Source: Mugil cephalus
Lineage: Eukaryota; Chordata; Actinopteri; Mugiliformes; Mugilidae
Direction of reading: 5' to 3'
DNA: 64,000 bases
Assembly: GCF_022458985.1 (NCBI RefSeq)
Contig: NC_061786.1
Span: 19,536,974 to 19,600,973, forward strand
Shown: in pieces, positions 54,901-57,900 of the stretch
Numbering within the stretch: the stretch's first letter is position 1
Layout of the letters: every line of letters starts with the position of its first letter
Position numbers and translations under genes: made by a program
The notes under the pieces: generated by a model
What the model was told of the DNA's origin: nothing
What the model saw: the letters and a program-made list of their open reading frames with translations, nothing else
Databases searched by the model: none

Positions 54901-57900
54901 GGAGTCCTCCACCCCGTCCACTGGCCTCTCCACGTCTCCGCCCTCTCAGTCGTCGTCCTCCGCCTCTTCGTCTTCTCCTAACTCCTTCCTCCTCACACCC
55001 TCGGCCTTGTCTTTCCTAAAGTCTCGCTCCCCCCTGCTGGCCGCTCTGGCCTGTTTGAGCGCCTGCAAAGGAGAAGCCGCCCGGACGCAGCCCTCCGGAT
55101 GGTCTGGGTATTTCCGCAGCGGAAAGAGCAAAGAGGTCGTCCTGGACGGCGAGCAGATCTCTCGCGAGGCCGACAGCCTCCTGACGGAGTTCCCCATCCT
55201 CCGAGCTTACCTTCACGCCATGGCCGAGCCGGTCCTGGGCTCCCCGTTGAGCGGCGAGGCCGAGGAGAGCTCCGCTGGTCTCGGAGCGGTCGTCTGCGGG
55301 AAACCTCTCGTCGGCCTCCTGATGTCCGGTCCTCAAGAGGAGGCCGCTCAGGCCGTGGCTGCGGACGCCTTCCAGAAAGCGCTGTCCTCCCGGGACCTGG
55401 GCCGAGCCCTCAGTCTGCTGGAGCTGTACGGGCAGGGCTGCAGCCAGGAGGGGGCGCTGAGGGACCGCTTGCTTGCGTGGGGCGCTTTAGCAGGTGAGGA
55501 ACGGTCATCACAATGCGTTTAATGACAGGCAGCTCCACGGGAGGTTATGTAACGACTTATTTAAGACCGGCATGCTTCTGAGAACACATTACATGATTTT
55601 CATAGAACAATAACAAGCACGCTCAAGCACACATGTACAAGCCTCACTGGTTTCAGCTTCTCAAATGTGAGGGTTTAGTGTTTTATTAAACTTTATCTTG
55701 AGGCTTCAAGGCCAGACAAGACATTTTAAGATGCCACTTTTTGCACTAATATCACAGATTAATGGAATAGTTAATAATAAATATGTATGTATACAGTGGG
55801 GGAAATAAGTATTTGATCCCCTGCTGAATTTGTAAGTTTGCCCACTTCCATAGAAATGATCAGACTCTGGTTTTTATGGTTGTTTACTGGTTATGGGTAT
55901 AGACAGAATATCAATCGAAAATGCATAAAAAACACACAATCTAAAAGTTATAAATTGTTATGTATTTTATTAAGGGAAATAAGTATTTGATCCCCAACAA
56001 TTCACTTAGAATTCAGGCTCCTACAGATTGGCTGGTGCGCATGTGGCACACAGCTGTGCTCAGTCAACTAATTACCAATACTCCTGATCTTAACTCGTCA
56101 TGTATACAAAGCACACCTGCTCTAAGAATCAGTTTCTTACATTCCAACTTCTACAGCACCATGGGCAAGACCAAAGAGCTGTCAAAAGATGTCAGGGACA
56201 AGATTGTAGACCTGCACAAGGCTGGTGTAGGTTACAAAACCATCAGCAAAAGGCTTGGTGAGAAGGTGACAACTATTGGTGCCATTATTCGCAAGTGGAA
56301 GACCCATAAAAGGACCATCAACTGTCCTCGGTCTGGAGCTCCCCGCAAAATCTCGCCTCATGGAGTGAGGATGATGATGAGAAAGGTGAGGGAGCAGCCT
56401 AAAACAACACGGCAGGAGCTTGTTAATGATCTGGAAGCAGTTGGGACCTCCGTCACCAAGAAAACAGTTGGCAACACACTGCGCCGTTATGGATTGAACT
56501 CTTGCAGTGCCCGCAAGGTCCCCCTGCTCAAGAAGGCACATGTACAGGCCCGCCATAAGTTTGCAAGTGAACATCTAAATGACTCAGAGAAGGCTTGGGA
56601 GAAAGTGCTGTGGTCTGACGAAACCAAAGTTGAGCTATTTGGCATTAACTCAACCCGCCGTGTTTGGAGGATGAAAAAACGTGAGTATGACCCAAAGAAC
56701 ACCATACCCACGGTTAAGCATGGAGGTGGAAACATCATGTTTTGGGGCTGTTTTTCAGCAAAGGGTACAGGGCAACTTCACCGCATTATGGGGCCAATGA
56801 ATGCAGCCATGTACTGTAACATCTTGGACAAAAACCTTCTTTCCTCAGCAAGAACACTGAAGATGCCTCGTGGGTGGGTTTTCCAACATGACAATGACCC
56901 AAAACATACTGCCAGGACAACAAAGGAGTGGCTCAAGAAGAAGCATATTAAGGTCATGGAGTGGCCTAGTCAGTCTCCAGACCTTAACCCGATCGAAAAC
57001 CTGTGGAGGGAGCTGAAGCTCCGAGTTTCCAAGAGGCAGCCAAGAAACTTGAAGGATTTAGAGACTGTCTGTAAAGATGAATGGGCCAAAATCCCTCCTG
57101 CGCTGTGTGCAAACCTGGTGACCAACTACAAGAAACGTCTCATCGCTGAGCTTGCCAACAAAGGTTTCTCTACAAAGTACTGACTTGTGTTGTGCTTGGG
57201 GATCAAATACTTATTTCCCTTAATAAAATACATAACAATTTATAACTTTTAGATTGTGTGTTTTTTATGCATTTTCGATTGATATTCTGTCTATACCCAT
57301 AACCAGTAAACAACCATAAAAACCAGAGTCTGATCATTTCTATGGAAGTGGGCAAACTTACAAATTCAGCAGGGGATCAAATACTTATTTCCCCCACTGT
57401 ATGTATTTGGTCCTTTAATCTCTGTTTTGCGTGGATTTTCTCTGGACGTCTAAACCACTTTTCCCAAACGATCTACATAGCATGAGACGATCAAACGACA
57501 ATTTTAATCCAAAAGGCTTTTAACTGTACTTGGAGAGTTTCTTGAGGACGTTTCATCCGAGTAGCTTCTTCAGTTCTGAGTGAGAGACTCAGGTGTAACT
57601 TAATTGTTTAACTGTAAATCGATGGCAGATTAAATCTGAGTCTCACCTCCTGTGTTTAGCGAAGGTTTCTCCGGTTTTGACACGTCCGGCTGCCTCGTCT
57701 CCTGTCCTAAATGTAAACGTGTGATTGCTTGTCTATGCATTCAGACGGAGATGAAGGTACAGGTCGACTGTTCCGAGTGCGTGACGCCGACCTGAGAGCC
57801 CGCGTGGCCCTCCAGGCCCTGGAGCGCTGGCCTCTGTCTTCCTGCCTGGAGCTGCTCGAGTTCTGCCTCAGCGACACCGGCACGGACGCCTCCCTGAGGA

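Follow-up and report, generated by a model that had tools for sequence, protein, structure and literature searches.

The window, a stretch of 64,000 nucleotides from Mugil cephalus, carries in the gene zfyve26 a Tc1 transposon whose two inverted repeats (IRs) are identical at every base and whose transposase frame is unbroken. A first-pass annotation, made from the sequence alone, took the identity of the ends as a sign of youth and proposed that the copy may be mobile or may have been so recently. This locus raises two questions: whether the element is indeed young and recently mobile, and whether the likeness of its ends can say anything about its age.

Anatomy of the element and its place in zfyve26

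The element, its parts and the intron that holds it are as follows (positions are those of the window).

55494..57744, + strand: zfyve26 intron with the element, 2251 bp (643 bp minus the element and one TA)
55792..55793: TA target duplication, left
55794..57399, + strand: Tc1/DD34E transposon copy, 1606 bp (from sequence, Pfam and genome match)
55794..55997, + strand: left IR, 204 bp, same as the right IR
55800..55821, + strand: outer direct repeat, left, a presumed transposase site
55914: element position 121, left half of a toggling mirror pair, A in the window copy
55974..55995, + strand: inner direct repeat, left
56161..57183, + strand: transposase open reading frame (ORF), 340 aa, DD34E
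56555, + strand: L132H substitution relative to the family majority, element position 762
56617..56619, + strand: D153 codon
56890..56892, + strand: D244 codon
56995..56997, + strand: E279 codon
57149, + strand: V330E substitution relative to the family majority, element position 1356
57196..57399, - strand: right IR, 204 bp
57198..57219, - strand: inner direct repeat, right
57279: element position 1486, right half of the toggling mirror pair, T in the window copy (A in IR sense)
57372..57393, - strand: outer direct repeat, right
57400..57401: TA target duplication, right

The anatomy given in the first-pass annotation, including its coordinates, the identical 204-bp IRs, the perfect direct repeats, the TA, the 340-residue ORF and the DDE triad, proved exact in every particular. 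The IR arms are 100% complementary, with a perfect match that extends through the target to 55791 and 57402, and a perfect inverted repeat of 204 bp is far beyond chance. Both IRs are of about 200 bp and contain an outer and an inner direct repeat, which is the layout of the IR/DR subgroup, and the four 22-nt direct repeats are identical. Sleeping Beauty (SB) shares this IR/DR layout, and by analogy with it we take the direct repeats to be transposase sites.

The transposase frame comprises 340 codons without a stop, or 407 aa when counted from an upstream in-frame ATG within the left IR. Pfam HTH_SB, HTH_Tnp_Tc3_2 and DDE_3 are all found in the protein above cut-off; the first two form the bipartite HTH DNA-binding domain of Tc1/mariner elements, and the triad D153, D244 and E279, with 34 residues from the second D to the E, is that of the DD34E (Tc1) family. 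The likeness to Sleeping Beauty extends to the protein, whose residues 114-340 have the SB100X transposase as their top match among solved structures (PDB 5cr4, E 8.2e-85) and whose HTH parts match SB structures.

The insertion was also correctly placed inside zfyve26. The upstream exon, which ends at 55493, matches residues 1271-1452 of the Zinc finger FYVE domain-containing protein 26 (PDB 8yad_C), the downstream exon, which starts at 57745, matches residues 1460-1521, and these two positions are the splice borders of the intron. The element lies in the sense direction of the gene, 300 bp past one exon and 345 bp ahead of the next.

A family of near-identical copies

Searching for near-identical copies, the check suggested in the first-pass annotation, was carried out on the species' own genome (634.8 Mb, 24 contigs) and yielded an identical twin together with 113 near-identical copies that were read. 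The twin, at C6:25193195, equals the window copy over all 1,606 bp, and the 800-bp flanks of the two are unrelated, which marks it as a separate insertion and rules out segmental duplication as its source. Zero differences in 2 x 1,606 bases mean that the pair split, by the 95% bound, within the last 226,000 years or so with the rate used in PMC7913693 (4.13e-9 per site and year), or within the last 93,000 years with an assumed rate of 1e-8.

The 113 copies (L009-L121; 20 further copies among the matches listed were left aside) were chosen because they resemble the window copy or its protein, and their age is therefore biased young. A frame of at least 340 aa is present in 110 of them and a shorter one in three. 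The DDE triad is kept in 108 of the 110 full frames, the other two carrying E279K, and one and the same protein, the family's commonest, is encoded by 52 of the 113 copies. The TA target duplication seen at the window copy recurs through the family, with TA/TA at 110/113 copies, while three copies (L058, L098 and L116) have no right end; among the first 40 copies, TA/TA is found in all 40 and a frame without stop in 39. The target 6-mer TATATA occurs at 26 of 109 TA/TA copies, as against 73 of 3,684 TA sites in the window.

In the protein search, the best 119 of 11,720 first-look candidates, which include the window copy and its twin, all match at 99-100%, and 117 of the 119 have no stop. The view expressed in the first-pass annotation that most Tc1 copies in fish are full of stop codons is thus untrue of the copies of this family found, and it also runs against the more than 100 intact copies of ZB-like Tc1 elements of vertebrates reported from 19 ray-finned fish species in PMC9777934. 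A search with the DNA-binding domain returned, among the best 150 of 2,628 first-look candidates, at least 130 matches at one identical score. All but one of the 130 equal-scoring matches listed come from C1-C4, which make up 24% of the genome; the frame is open over at least 340 codons in 67 and shorter in 63. Extrapolated from these best 150 of 2,628 candidates, and if the rest of the genome is alike, the genome total would be about 280 full frames and about 540 copies.

The copies are little diverged. For 107 of them (L058, L091, L097, L098, L120 and L121 were set aside for a lost right end, longer indels or, as in L097, a misplaced end), the mean distance to the majority is 3.25 substitutions per 1606 bp and the largest is 8; the mean corresponds to 0.2-0.5 million years at the rates of 4.13e-9 and 1e-8, a figure biased young. 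Seven groups of identical copies (of 5, 4, 4, 3, 2, 2 and 2; 22 copies in all) differ in their adjoining 25-bp flanks, and 800-bp flanks were compared too for three of the seven. Several source lineages therefore moved in parallel. The 59 variants found in 39 copies (the majority was built without L025, of length 1605) comprise 29 nonsynonymous, 15 synonymous and 1 stop change and 14 outside the frame; in the absence of selection the expected numbers are 25.8, 11.4, 1.8 and 20.0. At this depth of 59 variants in 39 copies the transposase frame shows no purifying selection, as expected if most changes arose after insertion.

Two altered lineages stand out among the copies. A sublineage of six (L049-L054, at C7:5502395, C17:6612, C18:21363130, C18:22085909, C19:1545749 and C21:18535150), five of them identical, has lost the transposase stop, gained a 23-residue tail and carries A329V, and multiplied nonetheless. 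Three further copies (L035, L039 and L041), identical and at different sites, carry P277L, two residues ahead of the catalytic E279; this trio possibly moved in trans.

Taken with the unrelated site of the twin, the 113 near-identical copies make it very probable that the window element belongs to a Tc1/DD34E cut-and-paste family that recently burst and may still move in Mugil cephalus. The proposal that the copy is young and recently mobile is therefore upheld, by the genome and not by the ends. Counted against a recent burst are the choice of copies by similarity, the shorter frame in about half of the listed matches with an identical domain (63/130), and L132H and V330E, which may weaken the window copy's own transposase. 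That the copies represent segmental duplication or an assembly artefact is extremely improbable. The 100% identity of the window copy and its twin might suggest as much, but the two have not even repeat matches in common in their flanks, among the first 40 copies the 800-bp flanks resemble one another only through diverged repeats, with matches no longer than 224 bp and 73-95% identical, and the later copies combine TA/TA with differing adjoining flanks.

For the burst itself, we infer transposase production, present-day function and the copying route. The transposase would come from the window copy itself or, as likely, from one of its many intact relatives; it would bind the direct repeats of both ends, excise the element and join it into a TA, and each donor gap repaired from a template would add to the copy number.

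The window copy is not the source of the family. It differs from the majority at seven positions that it has in common with its twin (T314C, A434G, T762A, C772A, G859A, T1356A and C1486T), and it represents a small side lineage of which two copies were found. This lineage would have gained its seven substitutions ahead of its last jump. Three of them change the protein relative to the commonest one, namely I23V (A434G), L132H (T762A) and V330E (T1356A), and two of these three changes are non-conservative. The description of the element as intact therefore holds for its reading frame, which is whole, but less surely for its protein, whose own activity these three departures make uncertain.

One reading of these changes, which we regard as evenly poised between true and false, casts the window copy as a passenger: L132H and/or V330E would have weakened its own transposase, and intact relatives would have moved it in trans. 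Among the 110 full frames, 108 retain L132 and 106 retain V330, and SB100X likewise aligns with L and V at these positions. The six stop-lost copies and the P277L trio show that other lineages with altered proteins multiplied, which makes movement by the transposase of other copies plausible in the family, although altered proteins could themselves be active and P277L, at a CpG, could be partly recurrent. Against a passenger role, the twin pair did move after acquiring L132H and V330E, and neither change falls at a catalytic residue.

Likeness of the two ends

The case for youth had been built on the perfect match of ends that were supposed to evolve independently after insertion. As evidence of age this match is unsound. 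Insertion resets LTRs, but it does not make the IRs of a cut-and-paste element alike; a DNA transposon carries both ends along on moving, and mismatches between them can be inherited. The present family shows this numerically. In its majority sequence the two IRs disagree once, left position 121 being A and its mirror, 1486, being G (IR sense); this mismatch is present even in the four copies that match the majority throughout and have no changes of their own. The pair is mismatched in 69 of 107 usable copies. Of the 94 copies that are 1,606 bp long, 21 have no IR mismatch, 35 have one, 25 have two and 13 have three or more. Because copies identical to the majority have an inherited mismatch, IR identity is no clock in this family. 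The zero mismatch of the window copy means A/A at 121/1486 and no other IR change, nothing more.

The same mirror pair bears on a further issue, namely whether the two ends exchange sequence. In 107 copies the end pairs at 121/1486 are A/G in 66, G/G in 24, A/A in 14 and G/A in 3, close to the 67.3, 22.7, 12.7 and 4.3 expected if the ends are independent (Fisher P 0.55). Changes were counted on a tree of mutually compatible shared variants, rebuilt each time without the tested site. The minimum is 7 changes for position 1486 and 5 for 121, whereas the other 48 of 50 shared variants need 1 (40 variants) or 2 (8 variants; 107 copies), making 121/1486 by far the most homoplastic pair in the family. 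Only two pairs of mirror positions exist among the shared variants listed, 121/1486 and 123/1484, and it is thus unlikely that the two worst sites are mirrors by chance.

General recombination between copies was rejected as a source of this pattern. Four-gamete conflicts occur in only 23 of 630 pairs, 17 of them involving 121 or 1486, and the remaining six are explained by three repeated hits (at 70, 619 and 1042); nor does linkage fall off as the sites lie farther apart (96 copies).

A possibility that comes close to an even chance is that the two IRs exchange sequence, by conversion or recombination within or between copies, which would keep them alike irrespective of youth. Such exchange would occur when an excision gap is repaired from the wrong end or when the IRs recombine. 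The sole outliers in changes needed are at exactly mirrored positions and toggle between the same two bases, and all four end combinations occur near their independence numbers. G263A, just inside the IR and similarly frequent (18 carriers versus 17 for C1486T), stayed in the compatible tree and conflicted with one site only (70) besides the 121/1486 pair; exchange between whole copies therefore does not explain 121/1486. On the other hand, mirrored changes at other IR sites are not in excess (4 seen, 3.0 expected, P 0.31), a further mirrored pair occurs in one copy only (L088) and at a CpG, and linkage does not decay over distance (96 copies).

A mutation hotspot in a context shared by both ends would give the same pattern. 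That 121/1486 is such a context-dependent hotspot, with ends that do not exchange sequence, is conceivable though on the doubtful side. Both ends have the same context and no other mirror pair is in excess, as a hotspot would have it, but the pair is not a CpG, and it would have to change far more often than the element does on average (0.11 variant types per base in the interior, 0.15 in the IRs).

The G/A copies are L062, L084 and L092. Within each of two clades (A259T+A278T; A257G+C258G), both mirror sites set the G/A member apart from the A/G members, a joint difference that a flip of the element between its ends would produce.

Returning to exchange between the ends, it is our tentative proposal, which we place slightly below an even chance, that in a recent vertebrate Tc1 burst the long IRs copy one another, or the element flips, and the ends evolve in concert. 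If true, concerted ends would account for the lasting likeness of Tc1 IRs and make their identity worthless as a measure of age. Inversion between the two terminal IRs (TIR-TIR) is known in bacterial IS (PMC3004938). In C. elegans, sequence exchange between Tc1 copies is described by Fischer et al. (2003), as cited in PMC9635669 and PMC1978519; judged by the title of that work, exchange among Tc1 copies is common to both cases, whereas the signal in the mullet family lies at a mirror pair of the two ends, and in a vertebrate. A literature search on IR conversion or inversion in Tc1 found nothing on fish Tc1 ends, which is no proof of absence. The mullet family offers a dense young data set for testing exchange between ends.

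Relatives of the family and other repeats

Elements of this kind are already known, and the ZB, DTSsa1, lamprey Group 1 and ZB-like elements are of the same sort. Zebrafish ZB (Tc1-8B_DR) is described as an element of about 1.6 kb with a transposase of about 340 aa, 201-bp IRs and a TA target, with 20 full copies above 99% identity, 19 of them intact (PMC7913693). By these descriptions the window family is like ZB in size, transposase length, IR length and target, and the ZB-like elements have its layout too; it differs from ZB in the number of full frames, 110 being read in the mullet family and a few hundred extrapolated.

The salmon DTSsa1 and lamprey Group 1 elements, for which bursts and horizontal transfer between fishes and lampreys are described, include a DTSsa1 copy with a 340-aa frame (PMC3516227; PMC2198921). 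The Group 1 consensus is 1,610 nt long, and its members are 92.5-100% identical to it, as printed in PMC3516227. Six published Group 1 primers, the only part compared, agree with the majority of the window family at 99 of 126 bases. This agreement of 79%, against a mean of 59% and a maximum of 65% for shuffled primers, falls below the 92.5% floor. On this comparison the family is a relative, though probably outside Group 1.

SB was revived from inactive elements (PMC7913693), whereas full-length frames occur naturally in the window family. This natural family, many of whose copies keep a full frame, is a candidate working vertebrate Tc1, and its insertions could serve as polymorphic markers. 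A text search of papers for end sequences found none. Relatives of the transposase were not found in viral contigs or in bacterial and archaeal genomes with a single-protein query, which detects close relatives only; this means no close viral carrier or contaminant in those collections, and little more.

Older Tc1 loci exist in the same genome. L122 (C21:20983547) and L123 (C7:15906275) have IR arms that are 84% and 74% alike, respectively, and short frames. The use of L122-L124 as a test of long-term joint evolution of the ends was dropped: no IRs were found in L124, and none of the three has IR similarity to the family.

Further IR pairs were sought in the window and in L001-L048, and nothing Tc1-like emerged outside the family. 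The search yielded two pairs adjoining the copy in L007 and one in the window, an inverted repeat at 11488-12324 that spans 837 bp, with arms of about 240-250 bp that are 66% alike, and is unrelated to the Tc1 family. At 47451-47800 of the window, on the minus strand, weak matches to the element's transposase (25-33% identity) are read as the remnant of a Tc1-like element, old and broken, that lies in the region of the same gene.
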